A DNA stretch of 64,000 nt from Nereocystis luetkeana (taxonomy: Eukaryota > Sar > Phaeophyceae > Laminariales > Laminariaceae). The notes beneath the pieces were generated by a model. The model was not told the DNA's origin, did not search any database, and was given only the letters and a program-made list of their open reading frames with translations. Of the stretch, positions 1,838 to 60,349 are shown piece by piece. Within the stretch, counting starts at the first letter, position 1; every line of letters begins with the position of its first letter. The translations under genes were made by a program, and so were the position numbers. The stretch spans positions 12,581,938-12,645,937 of the forward strand of contig JARUPZ010000008.1 in NCBI GenBank assembly GCA_031213475.1. Direction: 5' to 3'.

Positions 1838-4800
1838 TCACGGTTTCCTGCCGGTTATCAGAGCGAACTTGACCAGATTTTTCTTGTACCCTCGGACCAT
1901 CAACTGCGGAGGAGGGCGGGACGCACCACGAGACGGAATCGGCACGGGTCATATCAGGATGGGACTTTAGGGCGGCATTGCAGAGGGATATTAATAGTAC
2001 CGGGAACGATTGACATAATCAAGAGTCGGTGGGGATCAAGTAAGACAAGTCACGCAGAGGTTTCGACGATGTGTGCGCATCGCAAACCTCGCGTACCGGT
2101 CGCTGCCTCCAGACCCTGCGGGGTTAAAAATAGCAGGGAGACGTGATTTGGAGAGCACGCCCTGTTTGGCTTGCACCAGAACGAATCTCTCCTCCCCCTC
2201 TACTTGGCCCTAACGCCAGCTGCACGTACGTAAGCGCAGGCGCGCATGCGTAGGAAAAAAATGCCTAAAAAACAAACAAAAGTTGATTAACACTGTGGCT
2301 TGGGATGGTCACGACGAGAAACTACTATACCACAATACAGTACTACAAAAACACGGAAACAACAATACAATCATCGGCGACAAACACACAAAAAAACAAA
2401 TACGTTACAAAATACCAAAATACGAAAAAAATGCAATAAATAACACACACCGAAATACAAAATAATGATACAAGTAGCAACATTCCAAAATACCAAAACA
2501 TCGAACTGTGAGTCTACATCGAGGAACTCACGAACATGGCCACCGCTCCTCGAATGGTAACAGGCCCGGACTTGATGAGGCCGAGAATGCCCTTGGGGGT
2601 CAGGGAAGAACGGATGACAGCGGGCCAGAAGCTCTGCGACACCACAGGCGTAATGGCACGTTCCGTAACGCGACAATATAGATGCGGAAAGGGTGCCGTC
2701 ATGCCCTTTGCTCACCGCAAAAATGTACACTCAAAATCCAAGTATTCTGTCCCCATAAACGTGGGTGCAATTCTAGGGGGGATATTAAAAACAGGGCTGT
2801 TCACGAGTCAGGTAAAACCTCGCGGGTCGGGTCGAACCTCGTCCGGTCGGGCCGAGTCGGGCCGAGTCGGGTTGGGTCAGGGTGACCTGGCCCGACCCGT
2901 GATATTTTTCAAAACCTCCTGACCCGACCCGACGCGCGAGATTTGCGAAGACTTTCTGGACCCGACCCGCGGGTCGGGCCATCACCCGTGAAGCGCCGTG
3001 AAAATAAAGCGACGAGCACAAATTACGATCGAGCATCGGCCACACCAATAGGGTGCTTGCTAGGCCAGGAGATGGCGAATCTACAACAGCAGTGGCCGAA
3101 TTACAAGCAAAAGGAGTAGTGTATATACGACAGGACACGCGCGCAAGATGGTGTTACTCGCGCTAGTACAAGCTCCCACTACTAATATTAATACATGGTT
3201 AATACTACCGCACGTCTCATTGTGTATTGCAATACACTTTAATTTGCCTCGACCGACACCAAACTACTACATTTTAGTGTGTAACACTCGGTCCTACACC
3301 CTGGACAGCGCGCGATTTCCCTTGCTTGACACGTCTCCTGAGGTATTAGGCCCCGACAGGGTTGGTTATCAGGGTCGACAGGATCATCCGCGGCGAAATT
3401 AACCTGCAAACATTGTCCGACTCGGAATTCAACATGTTTGCCCCGGCCATGCTCGTATTTGCCTTGACCATACTCGTATGTAGATCGTGTCCCTCCCTTG
3501 ACAAAATGTAGATTGATCATCTATCACAGCGAAACAAAAAACAACTCATTGCACCTCCCTTTACAGTAAATTTTATGGGTGCAGTCAGGATATGGAGGAG
3601 TTCCCTGCTGCGATAAACTGTGGTTCATTCGATCAATGATTCTTCATGATTGAATAGAAGCAAACATTCAGAGGCAGGCAAGAATTGACGATAAAAAGTC
3701 ACGATTACAGCGACGGCCACTACGTGATTGGGGGATGATAAAAAAAAACATGGTGTCCGAGATACTATGTGACACCTCAAGGACTCGTGCTGCACGGGCG
3801 CAACATGATCCCACCCGTAATTCTTACCCCTCTCCCTATATACTCGTAGACGGTCAATAGAAAGCTATCATTGTCTCGGTCGCTATCTCCGGGACTTAAA
3901 GGGGTCAGCAGGAGACCGCGGTTCGACCCCTTGGCTAACCGCCTCCAGACACTAAGACTACAATATTAGGACCAAAAGGGGCCTTGACGCGCCCAAAACA
4001 GACAGGTTTCCTATACTATCAACAGAGTCTTCGAATAGAAGAGAGCGTTGATGCACCGCTGCACCAAGTTCGCTCATTGTCGAACAAAAGCACCTGGATA
4101 TTGTCCGTCCAGTCATCTCTCTTGATGTCGACCAGCCCCTCCGCTTCGAAGTATTTGACGTAGTCTGCCGTCGAACACCACCGTGGAAGGTAGTAGGCCT
4201 TGTTAATCCTGCAGACAAAGCGAAGCCGAGCGCAGCAGGGCGGGGCACAGAGGAGCAAGGCGGAGGCGAATAAAAGCAACGCGATATCAGTAAGCACATG
4301 TGGGTAAGAAAATCGATCGGGATGAGCAATCAGCAGTGGAAACGTGTACATAATATAATACGTACATGCGTAGAACAAGCTCCGTGGAAGGTACTGTACT
4401 GTACTACGCCTTGTTAATCCTCCCGAGAAGAAAACCAAGCGAGCGAAACGAGCGAAACAAGCGAAACAAGCAAACGCGGGCACTATCAACAGACAAGAAA
4501 TTTTTAGAGATACATGGGACACACATTTAAGGTGTATCTGTATGTATATCCACATAAGGACGCCATCAATAGAGGGTACTATTACGGGGGACCATAGTTA
4601 ACAGGACCCATGGTTTACATAAAACCTACCAGGTATATATTCAACCATTTTTACCGACAATATTTATTCCTATTAACTATGGTCCCCCGTAACAGGGAGA
4701 AGGGGCCTCTCCGCTCCAATGGCGGAGCGAGTACAAATTTGATTCAGGAGCTCGTCTGAACGAAGCGGGAAACGTGTGATCTGAGGTGCAGTTACAAGAA

Positions 4801-7800
4801 ACATGTACGAACCGTCAACGTTATATCCTAGGTCACACCCTTCAAATAATCGGTCGGTATCCTAGCTAAAATAGAGTAGTGTGATCTCTCTCTAGATATA
4901 TACCCGATACACAGTAGATGTCAATAACAAAAATCCAGGGAACGGACAGAGAAGAAGAGAGGAGGCAGGAGCAAACGGTTCCCGGCCGGGGGCACTCTGC
5001 GACGCCCCCCCCCCCCCCGCCCCCAACAAGAAATGCCTACGCATAGCCCACAAAACACCCGAAACAACTGTTGTTCACACGTAGCACAAAGCACGAAACA
5101 TGAAACAGTCAACGCGAGGAACTACAAATCGGTCCTCCTCCCCAAGCAATGTCTGCCTGGTCGGTGAAAAGCCGACGTGCTCCGTCCCGGCATTGCAGGG
5201 GTGCGGGGGTCTATGGTCATACGACTACAGCCATGCATAACATGAGTATCCCCCCCTATGGCCACAAGACGACGGCCATGCACGGCAATGAGTACCCCCC
5301 CCCCGTCCCCTTACCTCCCCTATATTATACCTGGTATATAGGTTGGGTTGGCGTCGGTAAGCAACGACACTGTAGAATACCCCTCCCCTATACTCTACAC
5401 CTGCTATACATAGGTTGGGTTGGCGTCGGTTGGCGACCACGCTGTAAAATAATCCTCTCACTGCGTGAGCTAGATGGCAAGGTTTTTTTTTTGGCGGTCA
5501 CCACGTCATGGCGGTCGAGTTAGATCATTTTAGTGCGAGGAGAACCTTAACCCCGCACGAACATCAGGTAGTGTGCATATGGTAAGGCGCCCACGAGGCA
5601 GTTACATTGTAAACCCATGGCTGTCTCTGGATATGGCCACACCAGAAAATATGCTTCGTATCAATTCATTGATGCTGTCATCCATATGCAAAAAGTCCGC
5701 CTCAAAAGCAATTCTTAGTAGGATGCAAGCTCACCCTTCATGCGACTCGCCCAACAACTCACGGCGTGTCGCGCTCGGTGCAAGTAATGTCTGCCTGGTC
5801 GGTGAAAACCCGATGTGCTTCGCTCGGCATTGTAGGGATGCGAGGGTCTATGGTCATACGACTATGGCCATGCATGATATCGAGTACACCCCCTCCCCCT
5901 CCTCCCCTTTCCCCGCTACAAAATCGGAGGGGTGCATAGACCTTGGCCCTGCTTCAACAAAAAAGTTGAAAAGTGCTTGAATTTGAAATCCTTACCCTGG
6001 CCCTAGCCACAACAATCTGGGAAAAATCTGGGAAACATCTGGGAGTGGGGTTGAAACGAGGATTTACAACAATTAATAGCGTACCGGTAGACCATCAACC
6101 AACTTTGTTTACTTGACTCTAAACCCTTAACCCTAACCACGACCGCTTGTTTTTTTTTCTCGGAAATGAAGACGAAAGGAGGAGGCATATAGCATGCAAC
6201 ATCAACCTTTTCGCAGAAGCTGGGGGGCGTACTCGATCTCATGCATGGCCGTAGTCGTAAGACCATAGACCCTCGCATCCCTATAATACCGGGACGGAGC
6301 ACGTCGGGTTTTCACCGAGCAGGCAGACGTTGCTTGCACCAAGCGCGAAGCGCCGCGAGGTGTTGGGCGCGTCGCATGAAGCGTGTGAGCTGCATCCTAC
6401 TAAGATGAGCTGTACGCTAATAACCGCTTGTGAGGCGGCCTTGCAACGGATGACAGCGTCGAATGAATTTACCAGGTATTTATGTTTTGGTATGGCCGAG
6501 GGGGGGGGGGGGGGGAGAAGCCGTAAACACTACGTACTGAAAACTGAGGCAGCACGAGAACACGAACAAATATCACACCTCACCCGGACAGCTCATCGAT
6601 TCCCGCAGTTCATGGTCTAAACCTTACAAGGCAGAATATTCCCGATCTTGTGTTCATATGATCTGGCTCATGTTTCCGGGTGGGAGCCGTATAATCTGCA
6701 TGCTGATCTACTGTAGCACATGTTTCCTGGGTTGGATCTGTACTAGTATGCAGATAGATCCTGCGCAACCTCTCACAACGGCAGCTGAGGAACTACTGTA
6801 GATGATCTACTGTATATAGATATATCAGATATAGACATATATATAGATCGTGATCTGACCGAGGTGTGAACAATTTGCTGGCGGTGTCATACGTACTTGC
6901 TGAGAAGCTTCTCTTCGGCGGGCTGCAGCGACGTCTCCCCCTCCTCCAAGTCGCGATGACACCAGGTGATGACCAGGACCCGCCCCCCCGGGGCACACAC
7001 GCGTGCCAGCTCTCCAACAAACCTGAGCGTAGGAGGTATACAATAGTCGGGAGGAAGTGAGGAAAGAAGCAAGGAAGAAAGAAATAAAACCATAGGAGAA
7101 GAGTGAAATAAACAGACCAAAACACACACGGGAAGCTTACAGATTCAAAAGCAAAACACCGGAAGAACGCAACGAAACAGCGGACGAGAAATATAACGAA
7201 GCACACGGAAACAACTAAAGCACGAACAAACAAACACACACGAAGTAAGTGGAGGCAGGAAGAAAGGAAGGAAACCATCATCATCGTCACCATAATCAGA
7301 ATCATCGTCGTCGCCACCACCATCACAACCTCTATATGATTACCACCAATACTACTGTCGCTCTTCCTATCAGCGCTGTAGGAAGCCTATATATACGGTA
7401 CTTCGCCAAGTGGAGACTCACTTAGGCTTGTAGGGCATGTGCTCCCCGCTCTCCATGCTCCAAACGAGATCGAACGAGCCCGTCTCGAACGGGGTGTCCA
7501 GGGCGTCGGCGACCTAACCAGGGCACAGTCGTATTGCCTCGTGTTGCATCACATTGCACGGTATGGTTGCACGGCATAACATGGTGCTGTGTGTTGCTGC
7601 ATGGTGTGGCATGTTGCTGCGTGATCTTGCACGGCATTGCATGGTGTTGCTGGGTAGTGCACGGTGTTACATGGTATCGCGTCTCACATATTGATGGGTG
7701 GTATTGATTGCATGGTGTTGCATGGTATTGATTGCATGGGGTTGCATGCCATAGCACGGCGGTATTGCATAGTGGTCAAGTTGCATGTTGTTGCACGGTA

Positions 7801-10800
7801 TCGCATGTTAGAGACACCTAGTATGCCATACCCAATGAGCTACAAATAGCAACGGCTGCTTTGCATCTCTGGATACACTATAAGATTCAACTTGACATAA
7901 AAAATAGGCCTCTAGCAGAGTATATTCATAACACGACCCCTCGATGGAAATACCATAAAACTAATATAGCAACTAACGTCTACACTAGCCGTTCCATTCT
8001 TAACGCCGAAGCAAGGACGAATGCCGCACCTGAAACTTGCACTTTTCCCCCAGGCCAGCTGCCTCAGAGAGTGCTTGAGCCCTGTCCCTCTGCGCGCACA
8101 GGCGCCCGCGTCGTCACGAGAAAGAGACGGCCGGAAAGATGAAATATCAAAATGAAAACACAATTACGTGAAACATAATTTTGATGACATTTACTGTACT
8201 GCAAGCTGTGCGTCTACCGCTTTTCCGTCACACTCGTATATGATGCGAGCGCGAGCCACGAATGACAGTATTTATGCATATTGATGTCGCTGTTGTTTCA
8301 CAGCGTTAAAATCAGTAGGCTATAGCCGACCCTTGCCGCATACCGGTAGCTTTATATACGACCGAGGTAGTCACGTCTGTCACAGAAACTGCAACAGTAC
8401 TCCCTTTACTGCTGTAAACGTACGAGCCCTGCCAACGGTACCGCTGGTAAAACGACACCGGCTATTGTCCATACCTGGTATCACCCGGGCTTTGGTTCGA
8501 CAAAATGGTTACGTATGGCTGAATGGTACTCGTTTTTTTTATTTCAGGGCAGACCCGAACCATCCCAACCTAACCCTAATCCCAACCACGACCCGGTGCC
8601 ATACATTTTCACATAGCTTGTCCACTACAATCACATGTAGGGCACCGCGGGGCGTGGGGGGGGGGGGCGTGTACTCGATACCATGCATGGCCGTGGTCGT
8701 ATGACCATAGACTCCATATCCCTGCAATGCCGGGACGGAGCACGGTGGGTTTTCACCGACCAGGCAGACATTGCTTGCACCAAGCGCGGAGCGCCGTGAG
8801 GCGTTCGGCGAGTCGCATGATGGGTGAGCTGCATCCTACTAAGAACCTCTTGCCAGGCGGACTTTCTTGCATATGGATTACAGGGGCGAATTAATTTACT
8901 TGTTTTCTGGTGTGGCCACTTCCATAGACAGCAATGGGTATACTATGTAACTACCTTACCATACACACACTGCGTTGATACGACCATTCCCATTGTGCGG
9001 AGTCAAGGTCCTTCATTCCGCACAAACAATCTAACTCGACGCGCGGTGGGGGGAGGGCGGGTCGGCGTCGGCAGTACGGGACACGACTTTAACATAGCTT
9101 TACCTGCACGGGGGAGAGCGTTATGCCGGTCATGGACGTCCCGTACCTCCGGCTTATCTGACGAGAGGACCCTCCCACGCCGCACCCTGACGGACGAAAC
9201 GGTTGACACACCCGGATCAGAATGATTCCCAATTCACGATCATTTATATTTTTCAGGGCAGGCACATCTCTGATATGTTTGCTTTGCGCGATCTACTTAA
9301 CGTTTGCCGGGGTGGAATATGGAAAATATACGGCTTTTGCACAACATGTCGTCACGGCAAAGTGTATAAACTAGATGACCTACGGTACGTAGATCGTGAT
9401 AATTTGCAAATGTTTCCAACAGTTAGGCTGGCGGGGTGAGCGGGGGAGAAAGGAGGCATGCAATACATCTTGCCCCTGGATTCGACAAAACGGTTCAAAC
9501 GTATCACTTTAAACCCTTTAACTGTAACCCTGACTGCCTGGGGATGTTGTCGGGACTAGCATGTAACGGGGAAACACCAGCAACCCCAACCTCGCCCGGC
9601 CGGGAAAATTCTCAGAAAAAGAACTTAAAACCTTGACCGGCTGTGAAATTTCTGGGTATGGAAGAGGTAAATACCATGGTAAGCGTTAGTGTGGACTGTC
9701 AACCATTCGGACGAGGCTGGGCCAATGAGTAAAACACGAGTAAAATGCTTTTTTATGAGAAAATTCTCAGGACTAAAGCGTGTGCGCGTAGCGAAATTTG
9801 GTTCATAACGACCACTTAGTTGATTCCGTTACCGACAGTTCGTCATACCCTGTTTTCAAATTCGAGCCGAATGTGGCCAAAAACACCGAGCTAGCAATCT
9901 TTGGAGAGGAAAAATTGAAAGAGCCGAAAAGGACAACGACCACAGCATTCAGTTCCTTAACACCTCTCGGAGGCGAAAGGCACCGCTTTGGTTGGTCGAC
10001 TAGACCGGGAGATGCTGCGAATTTTATCGCTTGGAGAGAACGCGTAATGTCCTCCGCGCATCACATCGACTTGGACCTGTGCCTACAGCAGTAAACCCCC
10101 GTCTGAAAGGTTAGAGGAGACGGGCACGAGTCAACCGCAGTGCCCTTTTGAACGATACTCGCTCGTCGCCCTTGCTGCACGGGAGTGGTGTCCGCGCTGA
10201 GTTATGGTGGACGACAGGGCTAGCGATGTGGCGATCGCGGATTCCCTGGCGGCTTGCGCCTTTTCTGTTTCGTCGATCTACGAATAAAACATCTTCAGCT
10301 CACTCCGTCGTTTTACATAGGTAGGTAGGTTTGTTTGTTTTTGCTTGTACTACTACTGGACTAAGAGCGTTGCTTCTGGGGGAGCGTCAGGGCGTGGGGA
10401 AGCAAAGGAGTGGGGGAGGGGGGGCTGTGACGATAGCGCTGGTGCGCCGACTGAGTACCCAAGGCATCGCTGCTTGGACAAGAATGTCCCGCGCGAATTC
10501 GCTGTGTTTGTGTGCGCCGTGTGTGTTGCTGTGTTTTATTTTCCCACAAAGGCCACGCATTAACAAGAAAAGTAGTGGGCACTCTGCTGCTGCCTGCAGC
10601 AGCAGCTTGTCTGGCACAAAACGCAGGCCGCGAGAGGCGTTTCTGTACTCTGCTGCGTTCCAGCGCTGCGGTTGGGGTGCGGTGCCTCTGGACGACTGGC
10701 TGCAGCGCGTCTCAACACACGGACACGATGATGCCAGCAACATGTTGGGTACAGCGTACCTCCCGGTATCATATCAACCACACCGCAAAGCATTGCGCAT

Positions 10801-11496: not shown

Positions 11497-11535
<39 letters not shown>

Positions 11536-14600: not shown

Positions 14601-17386
14601 ACTGTACCAGCCATTTTTGGGCAAACAACTTGGAAATGGTACGTGGACCCAAAAACCGGTAGGGAAACGTTTTGGATTTCTAAAATGGTTGAAAACGATC
14701 CGGCAAAAGTGCATGTTTGAAGGGTACCTTCCTGCGTTTATTTTAACGCATACCAGGGCATATCGCAAAAAAACGGCGCGCAGTCGGCGGCCTATATGGA
14801 GCTCTGGCTCCAAGAGGGTTAATAGTGGGAGCGCGCAACTCTATACACCACAGCAGGTTGTACTATTAAATAGTGTCACGCTGCACGCGTATCGGAGACC
14901 ATTTGGTACTATTGCGCCTCGGGTGCATCCACCTCCTCAGCGTAGCCCGGGCTGCCTGCTTGGTATGATCGATGCTGTAATGGCCCATTTTTTTCAATTT
15001 CCTTTGCGCTTGCAATCCCGGAAGGGTCAAGGTGAAATAGGCCTTCTTGCAACCCTCCATCTTAAACTGTGAGGGCCACTACGGCTGTACGTCTGGAAAG
15101 TTGCCTGCTCTTCTTGTGGTTTGCCTGTGTAACCGTGCGTGTGTGCGCGGGAGTGCCACCAAACTCTTCTTCAGGAAACCTATGAGCCGAGTATCCAGTT
15201 AAAAACAGGGGCACGTCCCCAAATAAAAAACACGCATCTTGGGCACCGTCTTCCAACTCCCGACCCGCGGAAAATAACACTACTGCCGGCACTCCGTACT
15301 GCGTACTGGTACCAGGTATACTGATAGTGGAAACTGAATGTTGAACACATGCTCAATAAAGTCGACGAGTCGACGGGTTTACACAAAGGTATCTATCGTT
15401 GTGCCGTGGTTTACAGAAAGGTAGCGGTGTGTTGTAGTTTGCGTAAATGTATCGGTGTGTCGTGGTTTACCTAAATGTACCGGCGTGTGTCGTACCGGTG
15501 TGTCGTGGTTTACATAAAAAAGGTACCGGTGTGTCGTGGTTTACAGAAAGGTATCGGTGTGTCGCAGTTTACATAAACGTCTATGCCGGTACCGGTGTGT
15601 TGCGGTATACAGATATATGTGTCGTGGCTACATAAACAAGGTACCGGTGTGTCGAAGTCTACAAAAAGGTACCGGTGTGTCGTAATATACAGAGAGGTAT
15701 CGCACCGGTGTGTCGTGGTTTACATACATATCCAATTATCCGGTGTGTTGTGTGGAAAGCATTCAACCGTTCTATCCACCCATCGCACCCTGCGTCCGTG
15801 TTGATTCTCCATCTTACGATAGAGAGATGCCAACTCTGAACATGTCATGTGGTCACAAACCATGAGACAACAGAATATACGCAAATACACCCCACGCCAA
15901 ACGTACTGGATAAGAAAAGCAGGCCGTACAACAAACCAGACGGATTGAAAAGGTGTTCTACGCGTATATGGACGTCGCCACCTCTGCTGGTGTCGGCCTT
16001 GTCGTGACGTGATCTTAGACGGGTTTGGCCGCGGTCTTGACACGCACGTTTTCTTTCGCAGATGTGGCAAGGAGGTGCCTCCACAAAGCCCCCCTCCCAT
16101 GTCGCGAGGAGAGATCTCACAGGATAGAGAGAGTGGAAGTTGGGGTCCTTCTCGTAGAAGAGGACCCTTCACTCCCTGGTACTCGCAGCTTTCTGGGTTT
16201 ATATTCCCGGACATCATCTATTATGAAGACCATCCATGGTGGCGGGTATCGTAGACCGGACGGTGGCTAATGGATCCTCATCGTTGGCATGTGTGATCGG
16301 AGATTGACATTTTCTACGTACCCTGTCTTCCACAATATGTTGATGGTATAAATAATACCACTCTGGACGAAGTATAAGGACCGTTGGGTATTGATATTTT
16401 AGGTACAATTGGTCCTTATATTCCCGTCCTGACACTCTGGACGGGAATATAAGGATCGTTGTGTATTGATATTTATGTATAATCGCTCCTTATATTTCCG
16501 TCCAGACACTATACTTATGTAGGTACTCGTACGGGTATGTAAAATACCAGGGGCGCATCAGTTCGAGGTACCAGGTACATATACTTGTTAATATTAATAT
16601 TAGTATTATTAATATTAATAGTACAAGTACTCGCACTATTAAATATTATTAACAAAAATATTTGTAACATGATCTGCCCCATGGTTGTGTACAAGTGTAC
16701 AAACACAAAGGAGGTGAACATTGAACAAGTATCCAACCTTGTGACTTGTGACGTGTCTTGTTCTTCAAATACATGTAACAGACCAACAAGATCTTACACC
16801 CGGCCTCCAGCAACAGGAGCATAGTCTCATACTGCTGATGAGACGATCATACTGCTGATGAGACGATTATACTGCTGCTGCCGAATCATGCATGGGGGGT
16901 GGACGCGTACGTACACTTTGAAATTCTTTCGATTCATTTTTGTTATTTTTTTCATGATCATCAAAACGAGGGCAGCCCGGCGGTCAAACAAACCTCGACA
17001 CCACATCAGCGAAGCAGCAGTAGACTACCAGCTTAACCGTACACGCGACGCAAAACAGCACATAACCACCGGTACAACATCGCTTAGAGAAGCACAATCC
17101 GCCACGCTGATGGGATAGAGCCATGCTGGTGGGCCGCCCGCTCAACTAGGGGCAGAGAGAGCGAGAGGTTCCAGTACAGTAGGCCGAAATACGAAATACA
17201 ACGTGTATCTCCTTGCTTCTTCCTCCGCAATGGCAGGCTTTCACGTTTTAAAACCGAGCTAAACCCAGGCAATGCCACGCGCACCTTGCTGCTGAGAGAA
17301 GGCAGGCCGACCCTGGGCGCAAAGGCATTGCACGGCGTGAAGGCGTAGGCTCCTGCAAATAGCGCGTGCACCACGGTAGTCTTCAT
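1838..17386 (-). CDS. VTE4: gamma-tocopherol C-methyltransferase (VTE4-like), 10 exons
   Basis: Predicted to methylate gamma-tocopherol to alpha-tocopherol with S-adenosylmethionine in the plastid. Exons, 5' to 3': 17386-17265 (3' end uncertain), 12355-12221, 11804-11716, 9186-9104, 8089-8030, 7513-7422, 7022-6897, 4208-4094, 2633-2532, 1903-1838. All introns are GT-AG and every phase from exon 2 to exon 10 matches. The product is about 329 residues, close to plant VTE4. Visible landmarks: LKEGIANFYD and WGEHMHHGYY (exon 2), SAM motif VDIGCGVGGSSR (residues 112-123), GITLSPVQ, WSMESGEHMP, APGGRVLVITWCHRDL (204-219), YYLPRWCSTADYV, FWPAVIRSSLT and the end GYKKNLVKFALITGRKP then stop. Plant VTE4 has the same order. 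Exon 1 gives a hydrophobic signal peptide ending Cys-Asn-Ala before Phe-Ala-Pro, then a Ser/Arg-rich stretch: a heterokont plastid bipartite leader. Introns hold microsatellites and transposon copies. A related methyltransferase of the same family is possible but less likely. Confidence 0.9.
2812..2990. repeat. GGGTC foldback element, copy 1
   Basis: GGGTC-type pentamers on one side (cgggtcgggtcg, gagtcgggccgag) are followed by the reverse complement (gacccgacccg) on the other, so one strand can fold back on itself. It lies in intron 9 (1904-2531 is a separate intron) of the VTE4 gene, between exons 8 and 9. Close relatives lie at 27872-28240, 28876-29225, 29893-30062 and 41612-41796. Confidence 0.8.
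4582..4692. mobile_element. MITE-1 copy a (TA-flanked, TTACGGGG ends)
   Basis: About 110 bp bounded by TTACGGGGGACCATAGTTAA and its near-perfect reverse complement. There is no coding capacity. It carries a TACCAGGTA insert at 4627-4635 that the copy at 58590-58693 lacks. It lies in the intron between exons 7 and 8 of the VTE4 gene. Confidence 0.85.
5137..5911 (+). mobile_element. Poly-C-tailed element: one partial copy and one longer copy
   Basis: The partial copy (about 5145-5307) has the 3' part (aagcaatgtctgcctggtcgg, tatggtcatacgactac) and ends in C runs. The longer copy starts at the 'ggttgggttggcgtcgg' head, which is present twice (5341 and 5413), and runs to 'gagtacacccc' near 5900. 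Other copies lie at 8655-9062, 20170-20450, 42480-42735, 44310-46445 and elsewhere. No protein is encoded. Confidence 0.8.
6218..6510 (-). mobile_element. Poly-C-tailed element, minus-strand copy
   Basis: On the minus strand this reads the family 3' half (gcagctcac, gcttggtgcaagcaacgtctg, ccatgcatgagatcgagta) and ends with a short C run at 6218-6225. The 5' part is diverged from about 6420 on and includes a TACCAGGTA motif near 6472. Confidence 0.75.
6560..6860. repeat. W repeat, copy 1
   Basis: This shares 'ggacagctcat', 'cacatgtttcctgggttgg' and a terminal GATC/TAGA-rich palindromic stretch with 12420-12760, and with 40910-41260 on the opposite strand. There is no open frame of note. Its function is unknown; a non-autonomous transposon is likely. 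Confidence 0.65.
7540..7810. repeat. Degenerate TTGCATGG minisatellite
   Basis: The motif ttgcatgg(t), variously ttgcacgg and ttgctgcg, recurs about every 10-20 bp. It lies in the VTE4 intron just upstream (in gene direction) of the exon at 7513-7422. Short His/Cys-rich open frames across it are composition artefacts. Confidence 0.8.
8655..9062 (-). mobile_element. Poly-C-tailed element, near full-length minus-strand copy
   Basis: On the minus strand it runs from the region equivalent to 'cgcacaa..gaatgatcgtatcac' through 'gcagctcacccatcatgcgactcgcc' to the C run at 8655-8665. It lacks the 'ggttgggttggcgtcgg' head. It lies in the VTE4 intron between exons 4 and 5; its left limit is about 40 bp from exon 4 (9104). 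Confidence 0.8.
11386..11652. repeat. Long (CTA)n / (CTG)n trinucleotide array
   Basis: About 265 bp of nearly pure CTA units with interspersed CTG. It begins about 64 bp downstream, in gene direction, of the exon 3 donor (11716) of the VTE4 gene. Long poly-Ser and poly-Leu open frames across it are artefacts of the repeat. Confidence 0.95.
12420..12760. repeat. W repeat, copy 2
   Basis: This is homologous to 6560-6860 and 40910-41260 (opposite strand), sharing 'ggacagctcat', 'agcacatgtttcctgggttggg' (first 20 bases meant) and a GATAGATAGATCAGATATATGATG tail region. It begins about 65 bp upstream of VTE4 exon 2 in gene direction, inside intron 1. Confidence 0.65.
13089..13345. mobile_element. 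MITE-3 copy a (CCGTATGA ends)
   Basis: The terminal inverted repeats read CCGTAGAACACTATCACCC on the left and, reversed, ACCTTATGGCACTACCAC on the right, with TA after the right end. It is about 257 bp and lies in VTE4 intron 1. Related copies are at 54983-55232, 59861-60116 and 60969-61561. Confidence 0.75.
13640..13775. repeat. AAACGGCACGA minisatellite
   Basis: About ten imperfect units of roughly 12 bp (aaacggcacgac, aaacggtacggt). It lies in VTE4 intron 1 and has no other visible function. Confidence 0.85.
15395..15735. repeat. GGTACCGGTGTGTCG minisatellite
   Basis: About ten units of 28-40 bp with consensus 'ggtaccggtgtgtcgtgg' plus 'tttacataaa', varying in length and in the linker. 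It lies in VTE4 intron 1. Confidence 0.85.
16362..16506. mobile_element. MITE-5: two tandem 70 bp units with inverted ends
   Basis: Each unit is bounded by TCTGGACGGGAATATAAGGA-like sequence and its reverse complement TCCTTATATTTCCGTCCAGA. The first spans about 16362-16432 and the second 16436-16506, separated by a few bases (CAC). The second has the better-preserved ends. I saw no other copy in the window. Confidence 0.7.
17265..17386 (-). CDS. VTE4: Exon 1 of the VTE4-like gene: plastid targeting leader
   Basis: The ATG at 17386-17384 opens a frame with about 20 mostly hydrophobic residues, then Asn-Ala-Phe-Ala-Pro and a basic, Ser-rich stretch. This fits a signal peptide plus transit peptide cleaved before Phe. 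The 3' boundary is inferred. The GT at 17264 (GTTTAG) gives the phase-2 junction that the exon 2 acceptor at 12355 needs; a stronger-looking GTGCGC after 17285 would be phase 0 and would need a small extra exon. The link to exon 2, 4.9 kb away, rests on strand, phase and the expected plastid location. Confidence 0.6.
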
Positions 17387-18904: not shown

Positions 18905-19270
18905 AGTCGTACGCCTTACTGTGAAGGTACTACCTACTGAGCTATAGGGGCAAAATATCGATCAATTACCCAGCCCAGGGTAATCCTTACAACAATCTCC
19001 GCCCCCATGAGCAGAGGGATCTTTGAGGCGTCGGTACCTTATACGGGCGTACGCTGACCTAGGGAAATACCTGGTAAGTTCAATACCTGGGGAACCAGGG
19101 AAATATGTATTTGGGGATCGCACGCGCAAGCGTTTCTATGAAAGAAACGTGAAGTGAGATCCGAACCGGTGTCCTCGACGACGTCAAATGTGAAGGAAAT
19201 ACCTACTGAGCTATAGGGGTAAAATACTGATCGATTACCCAGCCCAGGGTAATCATTATATCATTACCCA
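18905..19270 (-). repeat. Two tRNA-like SINE fragments
   Basis: On the minus strand both copies contain 'ctatagctcagtaggta', a good A box. The second also has 'ccggttcggatctc', a B box with T-loop-like GTTCG, about 35 bp further on. The cloverleaf stems do not pair well, so this is probably a tRNA-derived retroposon head and not a working tRNA. The duplicated flank 'attacccagcccagggtaat' is present in both. Confidence 0.6.
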
Positions 19271-23564: not shown

Positions 23565-23912
23565 GAGATCGTATGACGTTGTGTGCATGATCGAAGGCAC
23601 CCACGAAGCAAAGCAGGTACCTGGTACATAGTATACCCATCGCTGCCTCTGGAAGAGGCGACACCAGGAAAAAAAAACAATTAATTCGACGCTGTCATCC
23701 ATATGCAAGAAAGCCCGCTTCACAAGCGGGTGATAGTGAAATGCAGCTCAATCCTTCACGCGAGTCGCCGAACACCGTGACTTGGTGCAAGCAAGCAATG
23801 CCTGCCTGATCAGTGAAAACCCGGCGAGCTCCGTCGCGGCATTTTAGGGGTGCGAGGGTCTTATGGTCATACGACTTCGGCCATGCACGACATGAGCACC
23901 CCCCCCCCCCCC
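23565..23912 (+). mobile_element. Poly-C-tailed element, copy with TACCTGGTA insert
   Basis: It runs from 'gatcgtatgacgttgtg' through 'cacccacgaagca' and 'gaaaacccggcgagctcc' to a C run at about 23899-23911. TACCTGGTA at 23618-23626 replaces the TA found at the matching place in the copies at 44549 and 45385. Confidence 0.8.
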
Positions 23913-26161: not shown

Positions 26162-26712
26162 GCAGGCGGCCGTAGCCGGCGGGAGTTCCGTCAAGGGGCG
26201 GCGGCGGATACACGCTTTGATTGGCCTCGGGGGCAGGGAAGGACGGCTGTCATGCCGGGCGCTTTGGCTCCGTCTTGACCCCCGGTTGCCTCTACCGGGA
26301 GGCGTTTCGCTGTTATCATAGCGCGGCGCGGGAGGCGGCAAGAAACAGGGGACACCGAGGGTGGCAGAAGGGGGTTGAGTCGGTGCAGAAAAACGTCGCC
26401 ATACCTATCGAAGTGCTGTACATATAATATAGACGTGTATGCTGTACGTTAGGCTGCCAATAATGTGCGCATACACGTTTGACATTTGGAGTTCAAAACG
26501 CCGAGAAAATCTACCGGAACACCCGGTGGGTTGGATGACGCCAAAAATTCGTACACCCGTGACGCAAATATAATCATGCACACCCCGAATGCCTCCCAAG
26601 GTGTAATCAGTACTAGAATATTATATACTATATTCAGGACTAGGGGAGCTTCAGGGATAGGGCTATGGACAGGGTTGGCTATAGGGTTATAAATGTATAC
26701 CCTGGAATATAT

Positions 26713-30062: not shown

Positions 30063-30531
30063 GGGCAAAAAACAAACAGACGCATCCACGCGTTTCAAGC
30101 TTCAAGTCAACTAACCCACACGAGCACACCTGTAAACACGCAAAAGCGATGCACTCGGCACTGCTGGGGCGCTGTGCACTGGCATTGCCGGTAAATGTGT
30201 CGTATGATACGTACCAGGTACGATACGGACATACCCTGGTACGCTCGTAATATACACCAGGATATATATCTGCGTCTATGTATGTACGACATTATGACGT
30301 TAATACTCGCACAGGAGAGGTTTACAGCAGTTGCATTTATAGCAGTATTAATAAACGAATACAACGACAAGAACACAATCCAGTAAAACCTCCAACGACA
30401 CTAACGATGGCAACGGCAGTTATGAACAACGACAGCAGCAACAAAGAAAGCAACAGCAACAACACAGGCACAGCGACAACACAGCCTTATTACAAAGCCA
30501 AAGCATGCCACACGCAGAACTTTCCAACCCT

Positions 30532-39200: not shown

Positions 39201-42200
39201 CGGGCCTGCCCGGGATGGTAAGCCCTTGGCAGACACGCCATTGCCATTCGGACTGGTCTTGGGAAAGCTCCGAGGCTGCATCCAATCAGTATGTCAGCCA
39301 ATCACCGATAAAAAAAAATTGCCCAAGGAACCGCCCAATCAAATCGTCTGACACATGACGTTTCCACTTTTTCTTGTTCAGGCCTTCCCGGGATGGCAAG
39401 CCTGTCGCAGACGCGCCGGACCCCTTCGAGCTCGTCTCCGGAGAGCTGCGAGGGCTGAGCGACGGCATCAAGTCCTTGGTTGGCACGGACCATCCTGTTC
39501 TTAATGCTGCAGCCAAGTACTTCTTCGAGCTCGATGGGGGGAAAAAAATTAGACCCGCTATGGTGAGGGAGAGAGGAGGCGGGAAATGGACGGGGGGGGG
39601 GGGGGTACTCATGTCATGCATGGCCGTAGTCGTATGCCCATAGACCCTCGCATCCCTACCATGCCGGGACGGAACACGTCGGGTTTTCACCGCCCAGGCA
39701 GAGGCATCGATTGCTTGCACCAAGCGCGAAGTGCCGTGAGTTGTTTGGCGAGTCGCATGAAGGGTGAGCTGCATCTTACGAAGAGGGCTTGTGGGAACCT
39801 GGGGGAGGGGGGGGGGGGGTACAGGACGGGGAGAGTGAGCGTAGATGAGGGGGCGGAGAGAGAGGATTGCAACGACCACGGTTTGCTGTGGCGGCGGTAG
39901 CCGGAAGGTCAGTCGGGGTTTTCCTTACAGTAGTTACCCGCCGCCGCTCTGCCTAAGGACTATATCCTTACGAGGTGTTGATAACAATGGCTGTTTTTGC
40001 ACCTTTGCACGGCGATTTCGGGACGAAGCTGAAGGAATCCCTCGTTTTTCGTTTTTCGTTTTTCGTCTTTGATTGCGGATCAGGTGATCCTCATGAGCCA
40101 GGCGTGCAACAGCCACGCCCATCAGCGCCGACCAGACCTTTACTCGGGCACGCAGGTTGGTACAAAGGTTGCCCAGTGGGTGCTATGCTGGTGGGTTGGT
40201 CAGAATTGTGATCGGTAGGTGGGGTGGTTGTTGTGCTGATTGGTTGGTTAGCTTGATGGTTTGATTGTTTGATACCCCTGGGATGTTGGTTGTCTGGTAA
40301 GGTGTTTGGTACCTGGTATGTGTTTTTTATCATTACTTTCACTTTTCCAGCCTAACTCGTAGGAGGTTTTACCCTAATCGATCTTCTGGGCAAGCCGTGG
40401 TCACAGCTGTCATCCCTTCCCCCCCCCCGGTTCGTGCCTTCATGTTTTGTCGCGCATAGGGTTCAGCATTCCCACTGCTAGTGGATTTTCATCGAATGTT
40501 GCTAACTCACGCTCTCGCGCTTTCCGCAAATCATTTTTTTGTGCAAGAACAAGTCGTTACGAGTATGCACTCGGTGAAACTTGAACCCACGAAATTGATC
40601 TTAGTAGGCACGCGGACCACCTACCAAGCCACCGGGGACGCTTGCTGATTAGTATTTGGTAGATCGGTTGGTTGATTGGTCAGTATACTGGTTGGTTGGG
40701 TGGTTGGTTCCATGGTGTTTCTCTTGTTTGTTGTTTGGGGAGTTGTTTCGTTATTTCAGTGGTTGGTATGTTGATTGGTTGATTGGTGGATTGGTTGGTT
40801 GGATGGTTGGTTGGTTGACGTCTTGGTTTGCAGCAGACCGCGCCGGTGGACTATGATAGCGCGACGGTAAAATACCAACCCCAAACAGCGCGGGTCAGTT
40901 CATGCGACAGTGACGAAACGGTTACAATCCACCACACATCGGACAGATCATCTACAGGTAGATGATCTACAGATAGATCATCTACAGGTAGATGATCTAC
41001 AGATAGATCATCTACAGGTAGATGATCTACAGATAGATCATCTACAGGTAGATGATCTACAGATAGATCATCTACAGATAATATTATCTGGAGCCTAGCC
41101 TGCCGTTATGATGTGTTATGCAATATCTGTATCTTACAGATCCAACCCAGGAAACACGTGCTAGATCATGCAGTCTTTACGGCTCCCTGCCGGCAACATG
41201 AGCTAGATCATATAGATCATGCAGATCATACATATCATCTTCCCTGAAAGGTCTAGATGATTATGTATTTGTAGATGGTTTGTCCGAGATGTATGCGCAA
41301 GTGCAATCAAAGTGCAATCATAGTGCAATCCACCCCCCTAGAGTGAGAGCGTCAACCTGTCTGGGAGTAAAGACCACGAGCACACTTAGATCCTGAGGTT
41401 GGTTTGTCGGGGAGATAGACATGCAATTGCAGGTTCCTCGGAGGTGGTTTGCAGACATTGAGAGTTGAATTGGCTAGAGTAGGCGCGCTATTCTATACCC
41501 GGTGTGTGGTGGGTGCAGTGGTGTAAGGCGTACCGCTCTCTGGCCGGAAATACAAGGACTATTTAGGCATCAGTACGAAGACCAGTCGGCCCTTGTGTTT
41601 ATGTGTCAGTTTGTTCACGGGTCAGGTCAAACCTTGCGGGTCGGGTTGGGTTGGATCGGGCCGGGTTAGGTCGGGCAAGGGTGGCCTACCCGACCCCTGA
41701 GGTTTTGATAGCCTCCTGGTCCGACCCGACCCGACCCGTGAGATTTCGGAGACCTTCTGACCCGACCCGCGGGTCAGGCCGTGACGCGCGCAGGGCCCTG
41801 GATATTTTGTTGCATGGTGTTTGTTTGAATCGTCTCGTTGGATGGCCGGGTGCGTTTAAAAGGGTTGCTGGATTGGTTCGATTTGATGGATTTTTTTTCG
41901 TGTAGGATTTTCGATGAGTGTGGTGACTGTTTTTTTTCGGCAGGTGGGTCCATTGGACCAGACGATGATGTATCTATCGGCTTTGTTATGTTCGATAGAT
42001 ATTGGTTGAGCAGTTTTTTTTTTTCGTGGGTTGGGCAAGTTTGTTGAGTTTGCATGGTGAGCAAGTTTTTGGTTTCTGATTGGTGTGTGTTTGTTGGTTT
42101 GACTTGTTGGATAGGGTTGTCGGACGGATTTTCCTCTGCAGGTTTCATTGCCACTCGTAATACGATAGTGCCGGTTGCCTCTATAGTGCCGGCATACGCC

Positions 42201-45200
42201 AGCCAGCAACACCGGCAGTATAGAGGCAACCGGCACTATTAACAGCACACTAACCGCCACACTGGTTAGTCCTATTACGGGGGACCATAGTAAATAGGAC
42301 CAAATATTGTTAGTGAAAATAGCGAAATATTTAGGTTTTTGTGTGTACCGTGGGTCCTATTTAATATGGTTCCCCGTAATAGGTGTGCCGAGCGATGTCA
42401 CGGGCACTAAAGCGAGCGACCCGTACCGCTGTACCGGCACTATAGAGAGACCACTACTGTGCTGTGTTTTCTGCCTCCCATCAATTCATTGATGCTGTCA
42501 TCCAAATGCAAGAAAATCCGCCTCTGAAGCGGTGCTTAGTATTAATAGGATGCAGCTCACCCTTCATGCGACTCGCCCAACACCTCACGGCGTTTCGCGC
42601 TTGGTGCAAGCAATGTCTGCCTGGTCGGTGAAAACCCGGCGTGCTCCGTCCCGGCATTGTAGGGGTGCGAGAGTCTATGGTCATACGACTACGGCCATGC
42701 ATGATATCGAGTACATCTCTCCTCGCACCCCCCCGCGCACGCCTGCACCTTCGCATGCGTTGTTCCACCCTACAGTGAGTTTTACCGGGTATAATACCAG
42801 TACTTTCTCTTCATTATTTTATTATCCGTATGATTTGTGGTGAAAGCAATATTTGAATGATTTTGAATTATGTGTGTTGCTTTTGGGTGATTCTTGTTCG
42901 ATTTGTTATAATAACGTATACTCTGATGTGTGTGTGGGTTGTGTATCCACTGCATGTTTTTGCTTTGCTTGTATGATTTGCTTTGTCATATCACGGGGGT
43001 GCATAGTAAATGGGACCAAATATTGTCAGTAAAAATAACAGTAGGCAAATATAAGGGTTTTTGTGTGTACCATAGGTCATATTAATAGTTACTCTGCCCC
43101 CCCGTAATGTCTGTCGTTGCTGTCGTCGTCGTTGTTGACCGCACTTCACACTCTACACCCTTCTCCATACCCAACGAGATGAAGTACGCCCAGTGTCCGT
43201 CCTGGTCCCGATTCTCCATCCGTACGGTCACAGTAGTAAACTATCTGTGAATACATAATACTTTTACTTCATGATTTTTTGGGTGGTTTGTGTCGGACGG
43301 TGACGTGCAGATGCAGAACGCGTTGCAGCTGCGGTTGGCGGAGATTACGGAGATGATCCACGCGGCGTCCCTGTTCCACGATGACGTGATCGATGAGGCG
43401 GACACGAGGAGAGGAGTGCCGTCGGTGAACAAGGTCTTCGGAAACAAGCTCGCGATTCTCGCCGGTACGCTGGGAGGAGGGGGGGCGAGGCGGTGGGGGG
43501 GGGGGGGTCGTTTTTTTTTTTGAGGGGGGTTGTTCCCGCGCTTAGAGGAAAGGGCCGATAATACTATTAACACTACTGATGGTGTAGATGCAGTAGTGGC
43601 TGTTGTGCCAAACCCTATCGAACAACAACACCACCCCCATACTGCTGTACCCAGCACCATAACCAACACTTGCATCGCCGCTTGCACGGCCATTTTGCGG
43701 GGATGTTTTGTTGCCCGCCCCCCCCCCCCCCGCCCAATGTTCGCCACTTGACTGAACGATTCGAAACTCCGCCCCGTGGATGCATTGGCGGACGGGCGAA
43801 TGGATGGACGAATGGATGGATGGATGGATGGATGGATGGATGGATGGATGGATGGATGGTTGGATGGATGGATGGATGGATGGATGGATGGATGGATGGA
43901 TGCAGGCGATTTTCTGTTAGCGAGATCGTCGATGAGCCTGGCGCGCTTGAGAAGCCTCGAATCCGTGGAGCTGATGTCAGCCGCCATCGAACACTTGGTC
44001 AAGGTCAGCTGTATATAGGCAGATAACACACCTGGTATGTACCTTGTATGCCTTCATTTTTTTCCGTTCCAAGCTTGAGATTGACCACTTTTTCCTTACA
44101 TTATTTCACCCAGCCGTGCAAGCTGTATGAGGTGAGTATATTCATGGCCGATATTGAACACTTGGTCAAGGTCAGCTGTATATACACAGGTAACACATGT
44201 GGTGTGTCGTTTTCACTTTTATCGCTTCAAGCTTGATATTGACCTTTTTTCATACAGTATTGCACCCAGCTGGTCTAGCTGTGTGATGTGATACAAAGCA
44301 ATGGTGTATCCCCCCCCGCTTCTCACCCTATTTTATATAGGTTGGGTTGGCGTCGGTTGGCAACGACACTGTACAACATGCCGCTCACTACGTGAGCTAG
44401 ACAACCAGTTTTTTTTTTTTTTTGGCGGTCGCCCACAGCTGGTTGTCGAGTCAGATCATTTGTGCGAGGTAAAGAACCTTTACTCCGCAACAAGCGAATT
44501 GATCGTATCACGTAATGTTTGTTCATCGTAAGGCACCCAAGAGGCAGTTACATAGTACTCCCATTGCTGTCTCTAGAAATGCCTACGCCGGAAACTAAAT
44601 TCACTCATTGAAGCTGTCATCCATATGCAAGTCCGACTCACAAGCGGTTCTTAGTAGGATGCAGCTCACCCTTCATACGGCTCGCCGGACACCTCACGGC
44701 GCTTCGCGCTTGGCGCAAGCAATGTCTGCCTGGTCGGTGAAAACCCGGCATGCTCCGTCCCGGCATTGTAGGGATGCGAGGGTCTATGATCATACGACTT
44801 CGGCCATGCATGATATCGAGTACATCTCTCCTATCGAGTACCCCCCCCCGCATCTCACACGTCTACGGCCATTCATGAGATCGAGTACATCTCTCCTATC
44901 GAGTACCCCCCCCCCCCCCACCCCCACCGCCCTGGACGCCCCCCCCCTGAACCCTGACCGTCACCGCCTTCTGCTGCCGCTGCCGCCGGCGTCACCTAGT
45001 CGTGAAGGTGTTGGGGCACAAAGCAATTCACCCTGCTACTATTAATAGATTAGATTGCCGGTTAAGCTAAGGGGGCCCAGACCAAACTCACCGCTCCCAA
45101 TCCCCCCTCCCCCCTTTTTCCTCAGCCCCCCCCCCCCCCCCCCCCCTCCCCCTATTTTTTATATCTGGTAGGCTGGGTCGGCGCCGGTTGGCAACGACAC

Positions 45201-49262: not shown

Positions 49263-49949
49263 GTAGTGTTGGGTAACACGTCGAAAGTTAACTCACGAAC
49301 GCTTTCTGCTTCGCTCTATGCTCTTTTTTGTTCCTGAACACGACACACGTCATCAGTACCACGTACTGGTACCAAACAGTACAATCTATAGGGACCATTT
49401 GGTCTCCATGTTGATACCCCGTTCCTTCCATCTCCGTCCAGAGTACTTTGTAGTATGCGCAAGGTACGAGTATCATGTCTCTTGTGCTCCCCGCACGACA
49501 CCAGTTTCAATCCTGTCAGGGGCGCACTCCCGGTGTCAGGCCTAAACCAAACGCCTAAACACCTTGAAATTTGAGTCAGATTTTCGGTTTTCTACAACGA
49601 GTGCGGTGCTAAATGCAGCAGGCAGTACCTAGTACCTGGTACCAACCAAGTGTTATCCGTTCTCCGTTCGTGCCTCGTACTTGTTCGTACATGCACCAGT
49701 AGCAGTCATTTTTTATTCATACAACGGCTCTTTTTTACAACCGCTCTTTCATATATACCTGGTATGATACATGGCAACAACAGCAGTATGTATATGTGCT
49801 TCGTGCGAAAGCCAGCCGTGACTGACTGATATACTTGGGTGTACCTGAGAGAATATAGGGGACGGTCTGGTTTTGTTATACTATTAATAGATTATACTAG
49901 TAGTGGTGGGGGGATGAGCGTCGAGAAAAGTGATGATACTGCCCTGTGT

Positions 49950-54950: not shown

Positions 54951-54982
54951 TAATAGTCGTAACTCAGATCCGGGGTGACATA

Positions 54983-55232: not shown

Positions 55233-55239
55233 CAGCAAG

Positions 55240-55565: not shown

Positions 55566-55615
55566 CATACCTGGTATAAACCTACCCACAATGGTACGCA
55601 TCACCTTGTATAAAT

Positions 55616-55711
55616 TTAACCCTTTTAGGACTGCAGTCCTGTTTCGAGGTCAAACTACTCGGAAGCAGTGTGGTTTGTCCCCTAACGGGACTGCAGCCCT
55701 GGAAGGGTTAA
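55616..55711. mobile_element. MITE-2 copy b (TTAA on both sides)
   Basis: TTAA|CCCTTTTAGGACTGCAGTCC ... GGACTGCAGCCCTGGAAGGG (approx.)|TTAA. CCC termini plus TTAA targets are hallmarks of piggyBac-type transposons. Confidence 0.85.
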
Positions 55712-55925: not shown

Positions 55926-57189
55926 CATAAGTAGTCGTGCTAAATAGCTGCTAAATACTGCTTGCTGCGCGCTTCCACAACAATACTGCTGTCAGTAAGA
56001 CGGTTGGTTGGTGAAGCCGCACCTCCCATTTTGTTTGGCAAGACCGCACCTGACGGTCTGGTTTTGACCTTTCAGGGGCTTCGATTAACCCTCTTGGATA
56101 CATATCGCACGTACTGTAGTGTATAAACTATTAATATATACACTGGTTGTGCTACTGTAGATGTGGACGGGTAGACAAAACGGTTTAATGTGGAGAGCAC
56201 ACACGAACACGTATTAATAGGTATAGGAGGGGGCATTGCCGAAAAAAGTGATGATTATTACGGCGGCATCAGGCGTTAGCCAGACCAAGCAGCGCAGCCC
56301 GGGCTGCTGAGGTATACCTGGTGTAGGGGATGCCCATTACCTGGTAATATCAAAGCGCGGGCCTGATCTCCGACAATCGCACACTGCTGCTGCTGCTGCT
56401 GCTGCTGCTGCTACAGCATAATAATACGGGTATTCGTTGTTTTTCATTTTAATCCTTCCGGGGCCCCTTTGATAGCGACAAAAACAACGGTTGACATTTT
56501 TTTTTTTGTGTGTTTGTCAACCATTAAACCGTCCACGAGCAGCGTAGAGCACCCAACAGCAGTAGTACGGGTAAGATGGTGAGATCGTGATGCGCCCGTC
56601 CCGCCCTGCCGCACCCCATGTACGTACGACCCTCCATTAAGGATTAAAAACAGTACGTGTCAAGTGTCGTACTGCTGTGCCGTGCGCTTTGAAGACGCTT
56701 GGTGATACCAGAGAGGGGGTTTACCTTCCACACGATGACGATGACTACAGCAATGGGGTCACTGCTGTGTACAAAACGAATGAATACAGCTACAGCAGCG
56801 GTAGACCCCGTCTGAGGCGTCAAGGCCCTTCGGTTTGATGCTTTCGCGTGGATAATATCAGGTAAATCGGCTTGCCACCAGGGGAAAAAACTGCTCAGGG
56901 TTACAGCAGTAGTACGTACGTACGTACATACATACGCCTAGTATTTTTTACATGCATTGCTATTTTTTGTTTGCAATGCTTCCCTAGTAAGATATATGAC
57001 GGAACTAGTTTGCCTGTCCTGAGTTGATGATAATTTGGGTGTATACCACAGCACTACTGTGACACTAATCTTGAGTCAATCAGACCCAATCAACCATTGA
57101 AACGGTGGACCCTTCGGCTCGTACACGGCAGTATTCTTCGACCATAGTGTCGAGTAAGTGCCGAACTCCACCTGGGGGGGGGAGTTGGT

Positions 57190-58340: not shown

Positions 58341-58589
58341 AGTCAGTAGCACCTGGATTACAGGGGGGATGGTAGATAGACTACAGCAGGACCTATTTTG
58401 GGGGCTTAAGTCATGGCCTAAATAAGTGTTACCAGGTATATGGATTTTTACCACAAACCGCTGAAACCCCTAAACGATAACGCCTGCCCAAGTTTTGCAG
58501 AGCTGCATGCCATAGCTTGTTATTAATATATAGATACATACGTTCACAGAGATATGTGACCACTACGAAGGTAGTTGCCTGATTATGTA

Positions 58590-58693
58590 TTATGGGGGGC
58601 CATAGTTAACAGGACCTATGGTATACATAAAAACCTATATGTTTAACCATTTTTACTAACAATATTTGGTCCTGTCAACTATGGCCCCCCGTA
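58590..58693. mobile_element. MITE-1 copy g
   Basis: TTATGGGGGGCCATAGTTAA ... TCAACTATGGCCCCCCGTA. At 58636 it has plain TA, where copy a has TACCAGGTA. Confidence 0.88.
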
Positions 58694-59029: not shown

Positions 59030-59080
59030 ATATATATATATATATATATATATATTATACCAGGTATATACCAGGTATAT
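59030..59080. repeat. (TA)n followed by two TACCAGGTA motifs
   Basis: About 14 TA units, then 'taccaggtatataccaggta': the motif occurs twice, 11 bases apart. Confidence 0.95.
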
Positions 59081-60116: not shown

Positions 60117-60144
60117 CAGTCAAAAAGGTCAACTAAGCCTTCTA

Positions 60145-60349
60145 TTCACGGGGGACCATAGTAAATACGACCCAATAGTGTCGGTAAAAATAGCGAAATA
60201 TATAGGTTTTTGTCTGTACCGTAGGTCCTATTTAATACCTGGTATGGTTCTCCCCGTAATAGGGCAAACTGCAGTCTTGTTTAGGGAACAGACCACTCAG
60301 ATTTCAAGTAGATTGCCCCCAAGATGGGACTGCAGATCTAAAAGGATCA
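60145..60349. mobile_element. MITE-1 copy h adjoining a MITE-2 fragment
   Basis: MITE-1: TTCACGGGGGACCATAGTAA (60145) to CCCCGTAA|TA (60259), with TACCTGGTA at 60236-60244. Directly after it, 60261-60349 matches MITE-2 (actgcagtc..gggactgcagatctaaaagg) with the left end missing. Confidence 0.8.

Follow-up and report, generated by a model that had tools for sequence, protein, structure and literature searches.

Why does the nine-base palindrome TACCWGGTA (W, A or T) recur throughout a 64-kb stretch of DNA from the brown alga Nereocystis luetkeana, and what left it there? The window, by which we mean this whole stretch of 64,000 nucleotides, is nuclear brown-alga DNA, and the assembly that contains it is chromosome-scale. 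A first-pass annotation had pointed out four pairs of repeat copies in which one copy carries the word where the other reads TA, and had suggested that a transposon targeting TA leaves it behind on excision. Our main sample is 354 kb of the same assembly from nine contigs, namely the window and 29 extra 10-kb pieces (21 from contig C1, which is 21,869,845 bases long, and one each from C2, C3, C4, C5, C6, C8, C10 and C12). In this sample, the change from TA to TACCWGGTA is a derived 7-bp insertion that was made many times independently. Exact copies of the word are called scars below.

The window contains 24 scars, 12 per orientation, where 0.66 are expected, in good agreement with the earlier count by eye of about 23 against about 0.5. 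Here and below, expected word counts were computed with an order-2 Markov model rather than by shuffling. TACCWGGTA tops the listed over-represented 9-mers of the window (words with all four letters and at least 6 copies). The enrichment continues outside the window: there are 102 scars in the 354 kb against 3.9 expected (Poisson tail <1e-100), which is ~0.29 per kb or about one per 3,500 bases, and 78 of them lie in the extra pieces, 25 of the 29 carrying at least one. The pieces without a scar are L081, L082, L084 and L087, the last being wholly and L084 mostly satellite. When neighbours less than 60 bases apart are merged and edge cases dropped, the 102 scars become 91 sites, and 87 of these have distinct flanks, so a single copied repeat does not account for them. 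Among 16 words of the form TA-xyWy′x′-TA compared in the 354 kb, the runner-up, TAGGWCCTA, reaches 16 copies. As a non-algal control we used viral DNA (70 loci, 2 + 68, together 632 kb, recruited by window repeat words and of unchecked relatedness), in which TACCWGGTA occurs 9 times against 6.2 expected. The spacer is strict, since TACC-Nk-GGTA occurs 9, 112, 18, 13, 6 and 4 times as k runs from 0 to 5, where about 7.2 are expected, and W occupies the centre of 102 of the 112 sites at k = 1. Extrapolating 0.29 per kb to contigs C1-C12 (~178 Mb, from nine known and three interpolated lengths) gives ~50,000 scars, an estimate and not a count, and on this extrapolation thousands of scars are likely to exist genome-wide.

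The insertion itself is seen in paralogous copies. In a strict test, each scar was replaced by TA, its own flanks were joined, and a paralogue running straight across without gaps was sought; control TA-N5-TA sites were treated in the same way. The test covered 83 of the 102 scars, after low-complexity contexts and sites near piece ends were dropped. A clean empty partner was found for 7 of the 20 scars with a spanning paralogue, compared with 10 of 349 such controls (1098 control sites tested; Fisher p = 6e-6). Three of these ten control positives trace to TACCWGGTA as well: those at 23625 and 60229 overlap scars of the window, and the third is the decayed form TATCTGGTA at 45162. When the limits are relaxed, a spanning paralogue is available for 30 scars, of which 13 face a TA partner without gaps, and several kinds of repeat are involved. 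The scarred state is rare among copies, with 11 empty partners for the scar at L098:7991 in MITE-1 (MITE, miniature inverted-repeat transposable element) and 5 for the scar at L075:7563 in the poly-C element, which sits at a TA near that of window scar 23618. Origin of the TA copies by deletion, named beforehand as the contrary outcome, was not seen in these testable cases. One TA of MITE-1 (AAAACC-TA-TATATT) was struck at 4627 of the window and at L098:7991, and L092:2939 shows it with the variant TACCAAGGTA; another MITE-1 copy, at L099:8819, carries stacked units. Both copies are scarred in four entries, which are two sites each seen from L076 and L077.

All four repeat pairs of the first-pass annotation hold (60236/42365, 4627/58636, 5328/44334-44339 and 23618/44549+45385), and the first two are clean. 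Beyond the insertion, scar 23618 and its empty copies differ at a base beside the TA and in a 5-bp indel close by; both 4627 and 23618 fail the strict gapless test.

The flanks of the scars favour W at -8/-7 and again at -3, A at -6 and R (A or G) at -1, and the flank information (Kullback-Leibler divergence) is 0.942, whereas none of 1000 randomly drawn TA sets exceeds 0.300. Left and right flanks were folded together for this measure, so that symmetry of the target preference is assumed. The 74 isolated unique sites show the same flank profile, which was not separately tested. Words with one mismatch to the scar, centre base excluded, are in excess for transitions (49 against 25.3) and at expectation for transversions (52 against 52.6); this restriction to transitions identifies the scars as inherited copies that slowly mutate. 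With 24 transitions in excess, spread over eight positions of ~98 scars, the decay comes to roughly 3% at each position, and a further decayed candidate is TATCAGGTA at L097:8657. A duplication between L076 and L077, 87-90% identical, has two scars common to both copies, and within a 79-bp stretch of 98.7% identity one copy carries one more stacked unit. Neighbour pairs less than 12 bases apart number 8 against 0.52 expected, those 12-30 bases apart number two against 0.74, and no large excess is seen at greater distances. By eye, most stacked units point the same way, though the opposite arrangement is found too. Stacking may come both from repeated hits on a favourable TA and, in part, from slippage.

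Because the insertion lies at TA, is derived, occurs at many independent places and shows a target-site preference, excision is the best-supported reading. We consider it probable that TACCWGGTA is the excision scar of a TA-targeting, Tc1/mariner-like cut-and-paste transposon, whichever of the two staggers discussed below applies. This part of the earlier proposal stands, but the parent suggested with it, MITE-3, is not supported. The scar predicted from its reported CCG end, TACSGTA (S, C or G), reaches only 75 copies against 50 expected, and none of its 29 testable sites has a clean empty partner; MITE-3 was judged by this predicted scar only, and the element itself was not studied.

We propose that the parent would have inverted ends beginning CCA, probably CCAGG. 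Its transposase would leave self-complementary single-stranded ends at the donor site, where CC could pair with GG over the gap, and the central A.A (or T.T) mismatch would be repaired either way to give TA-CCWGG-TA. In the simplest version the stagger would be 5 bases. If every jump left a scar behind and the majority of insertions were later lost, scars would come to exceed visible copies. By analogy with the TACWGTA footprint of Sleeping Beauty, the central base is better explained as mismatch repair of an annealed overhang, an account that requires a parent with ends beginning CCA(GG). Two minor words in the 354 kb, TACCATGGTA (5 against 0.38, while its counterpart TACCTAGGTA is at 0 against 0.33) and TACCAGGGTA (8 against 1.19), suggest end-processing variants and weakly point to an element end beginning CCA.

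Several observations weigh against excision. In the strict test, 13 of the 20 testable scars lack a clean empty partner; in the looser run the causes were gapped or weaker alignments (including window 4627 and 23618) or scars in both copies. The word with S at the centre, TACCSGGTA, is also in excess (10 against 3.8 in 354 kb, for example at window 12811, 42783, 59272 and 60517), and no clean empty partner exists in the 1 testable site of the 10; these sites could be mutated scars, or another product, such as the scar of a CCG/CCC-ended element. TACCAGGCCTGGTA, the product of a fully filled-in 5-nucleotide overhang, has 0 copies, which weakens the 5-nucleotide version and favours a 3-nucleotide one. 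The five bases between the TAs lie outside the published Tc1/mariner range, which in the literature excerpts consulted is 2-3 nucleotides for the stagger and 0-4 bp for the footprint pieces; this makes a standard Tc1/mariner footprint less likely, though not a Tc1/mariner-like mode of working. Rice transposon excisions are mostly untidy, with 8 of 94 perfect (PMC4423477; here and below, cited papers are represented by excerpts). No parent was recovered either. The 354 kb contain 104 non-scar copies of TACCWGG (47 TACCAGG and 57 TACCTGG), among which there is no convincing terminal-repeat pair, and no intact CCWGG-ended element was found. Among repeats interrupted at TA by an insertion of 40-9000 bases no filled site was found, at most 6 of 14 end bases matching, and we read these cases as repeat-edge noise. 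Finally, there is no Tc1/mariner transposase among 17 translated open reading frames (ORFs) scanned with Pfam.

Scars thus outnumber recognisable parent copies in the sample. The parent may be low-copy and transpose without multiplying, it may be efficiently cleared, or its ends may differ from those expected. Two kinds of candidate were rejected. The only exact inverted pairs listed have TACCGGG ends and sit in L097 inside a local inverted/tandem repeat that extends past the TA, and the TTAACCC elements near 61131 are piggyBac-like. Short palindromic elements occur at window positions 61129-61227, 55616-55711 and 33669-33765, the first two having TTAA-CCCTTTTAG ends of a piggyBac-like kind.

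Within excision, a 3-nucleotide stagger as in mariner is a tentative alternative to the 5-base one, and its probability is a share of that given to excision as a whole. Each end would carry a CCA overhang, and joining would trim one terminal A to yield CCA+GG or CC+TGG. No new stagger would be required, and its full-retention product would be TACCATGGTA, the minor word that is enriched while TACCTAGGTA is absent; Stowaway and Osmar5 footprints are likewise 1-4 bp pieces of terminal inverted repeats beside TAs (PMC1925063). On the other side, this version predicts mixed products, yet W fills 102 of the 112 one-base spacers, other spacer lengths stay near background with small peaks at k = 2 and 3, and the one-sided product TACCATA is hardly enriched (54 against 46). 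We regard the choice between the two staggers as nearly even, leaning slightly towards five nucleotides. A fuller proposal, that a TA transposon lineage with a 5-nucleotide stagger was almost completely removed after insertion and survives as a record of tens of thousands of uniform scars, is in our judgement rather unlikely.

Explanations outside excision have to meet the same observations. The lack of a parent and of a filled site in 354 kb is what one would expect if the 7-bp unit, whether a piece released from a transposon end or the product of targeted repair, were itself inserted at TA and the sites had never housed a full element. The close pairs (8 within 12 bp against 0.52) and the one-unit difference between L076 and L077 also fit. 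We nevertheless think this improbable, because the target preference, the TA duplication and the form of the scar match ordinary excision, scar edges that resemble the preferred target could also yield stacking, and some of the stacked units, being mostly in the same orientation by eye, may be slippage. A very short mobile unit, raised as an alternative in the first-pass annotation, has no direct support.

A conserved functional motif, for example a signal or binding site that selection or carriage in repeats has enriched, would account for a strongly enriched palindrome and for its distribution, as ORFs of at least 300 amino acids contain 0 of the 102 scars where 8.6 are expected. This long-ORF set includes a copia-type retrotransposon (L085), and the youth of retrotransposons, or selection removing frameshifts, may explain the scarcity equally well. 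A motif of this kind is very hard to reconcile with paralogues that show insertion into TA, with flanks that differ at 87 of 91 sites, with one-mismatch neighbours that decay through transitions, and with flank preferences that are weak and symmetric, as is typical of target choice. Chance, sequence composition or an assembly artefact has no observation in its favour and deserves almost no credence given the Poisson tail, the lack of a comparable excess in the 16-word comparison within the genome or in the 632 kb of viral DNA, and the presence of sites, decayed forms included, on nine contigs.

Other words between two TAs were compared with the scar. TATTAATA occurs 59 times against 1.87 expected in 354 kb (32-fold), with 28 copies in the window, for example at 42540-42547, 20242, 43080 and 61401. 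It is also in excess in the viral control (41 against 17.7), so the order-2 model underestimates this word, which explains part of the algal excess, although the viral excess is far smaller than the algal one. Clean empty partners were found for 7 of 17 sites, compared with 10 of 437 controls, and some of these partners sit in microsatellites, as at L099:8510. The flanks favour C at -1 and T at -3 (roughly TAC-TA-GTA), unlike those of TACCWGGTA. TATTAATA appears to record a similar event caused by a different element, one that leaves four bases between the TAs. TACWGTA is 2.6-fold enriched (141 against 54 in 354 kb) with C favoured at -1, but was not counted as a scar here, as clean partners were found at 1 of 53 sites compared with 6 of 270 TAN3TA controls; its excess could reflect older scars or a sequence habit. 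TACGTA was left out on the same ground (177 against 102, but clean partners at 1 of 51 sites compared with 16 of 381 TAN2TA controls). TACTGGTA (46 against 12.4) comes mostly from one 347-bp satellite, with 25 of 35 copies in that orientation lying within L087, and was also set aside; one other copy, at L077:7753, is a clean insertion. The satellite is a tandem array that fills all 10 kb of L087 (C1:16000001-16010000) with 97% matches.

The features of the window are collected in the table. Further tandem repeats were seen in the sample. A 3.8-kb AACCCT telomere array (TTAGGG type) opens contig C1 (L071 1-3820), and an 87/175-bp tandem array containing TAGGATCATACC occupies L084 720-9820 (C1:13 Mb). 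Window positions 40945-41075 hold a 30-bp tandem/palindromic repeat made of TAGATGATCTA / TAGATCATCTA, an 11-mer with 19 copies in 354 kb.

Table. Features of the window. Scar rows without a remark are exact word matches; a dot (.) marks rows without a strand.
Feature	Position	Strand	Remark
Scar TACCAGGTA	136..144	.	
Scar TACCAGGTA inside MITE-1 copy	4627..4635	.	Empty (TA) in the copy at 58636
Scar TACCTGGTA in poly-C element	5328..5336	.	Copy at 44331 reads TTTTATATAGG (TA region 44334-44339)
Scar TACCAGGTA	6470..6478	.	
Scar TACCTGGTA	8472..8480	.	
Scar TACCAGGTA	15310..15318	.	
Scar TACCAGGTA	16569..16577	.	
Scar TACCTGGTA	19068..19076	.	
Scar TACCAGGTA	22127..22135	.	
Scar TACCAGGTA	22305..22313	.	
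Scar TACCAGGTA	23267..23275	.	
Scar TACCTGGTA in poly-C element	23618..23626	.	Copies at 44544, 45381 read GCAGTTAC (TA at 44549/45385)
Scar TACCTGGTA	25166..25174	.	
FNIP-repeat protein	25448-26341	minus	Relatives in Hapterophycus canaliculatus, Scytosiphon promiscuus; 99% match, ENA source
Scar TACCAGGTA	30212..30220	.	10-mer variant TACCCTGGTA next, at 30232
Scar TACCTGGTA	40310..40318	.	
Empty-site TA, partner of scar 60236	42365..42366	.	
Second scar-like word TATTAATA	42540..42547	.	Copies at 5714, 44650, 45487 read CTTAGTAGGATGC
Decayed form TATCTGGTA of the scar, one transition away, in poly-C element	45162..45170	.	Three empty partners
Polyprenyl synthetase exon	near 47.8 kb		
Scar TACCTGGTA	49633..49641	.	
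Scar TACCTGGTA	49756..49764	.	
Scar TACCTGGTA	55568..55576	.	
Scar TACCTGGTA	56338..56346	.	
Scar TACCAGGTA	58430..58438	.	
Empty-site TA, partner of scar 4627	58636..58637	.	
Scar TACCAGGTA, 1st of close pair within TA microsatellite	59058..59066	.	
Scar TACCAGGTA, 2nd of close pair within TA microsatellite	59069..59077	.	
Scar TACCTGGTA in MITE-1	60236..60244	.	Copy at 42360 reads TTTAATATGG
Scar TACCTGGTA	61816..61824	.	

Excision footprints described in the literature, in the excerpts consulted, come from single loci or experiments and are often untidy. A palindromic scar that is exact and countable would allow past transposon departures and target choices to be read, and could serve as a clock and as a marker for comparing strains. 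The missing parent would mean unusually efficient clearance, or copies that go unrecognised. A 4- or 5-nucleotide stagger, if true, would widen the known chemistry of TA transposons, and a sister lineage leaving TTAA (in TATTAATA), if true, would mean that the stagger varies by lineage (3, 4 or 5 nucleotides) or that the host actively clears elements.

Comparison with known systems places the scar beside the TA transposons. In Ectocarpus, 17 Mariner-Tc1 families with 11,912 copies have been described (PMC12477816), and by analogy transposons of this type are plausible parents; the main text of that paper contains no words beginning 'footprint' or 'excision'. Among the matches listed in open-licence literature, a scope that leaves subscription papers and supplements aside, there is no report of TACCWGGTA as a scar. 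Two other superfamilies were considered and rejected. piggyBac targets TTAA and excises seamlessly, whereas the clean empty sites displayed by the strict test have TA but no TTAA at the join, and a 7-bp remnant stays behind. PIF/Harbinger targets 3 bp, TNA or ANT (PMC12477816), and here the bases beside the TA vary among sites, the empty sites sharing TA alone. As in Tc1/mariner transposition, TA stands on both sides, the scar replaced by TA matching empty copies, and the preference around TA is palindromic (0.942 against 0.300, flanks folded).

Stowaway MITEs and Osmar5 resemble the algal case in leaving short terminal pieces between two TAs and in the reuse of one TA, but their footprints are of several distinct kinds with 1-4 bp pieces (PMC1925063), whereas one product dominates in the alga. 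Passer, of the pogo group, shares with the scar a TA target in a palindromic consensus and small footprints, but its footprints are of 0-4 bp and its target is AAGTACTT (PMC9976928). The excision footprint of Sleeping Beauty is TACWGTA (PMC4378557), like TACCWGGTA an odd palindrome with TA on both sides and W at the centre, a form that, as we deduce from its 3-nucleotide overhangs (PMC7827188), annealing of the 3′ overhangs with a central mismatch would give. Sleeping Beauty leaves three bases (CWG) between the TAs, whereas the alga has five (CCWGG), the mismatch being flanked by two pairing bases to the left and two to the right; its footprint comes from experiments, whereas the algal scar is found at about 29 sites per 100 kb of genome with no parent. 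The ends of Mos1 begin CCAGGTG, and its footprints have three bases, TACCATA. The mariner element Mos1 and the algal scar are alike in their TA target, but the Mos1-type footprint is hardly enriched in the alga, as noted above. Read as an excision scar, TACCWGGTA is a TA-transposon footprint that is unusual in its length, its uniformity, its density and its missing visible parent.

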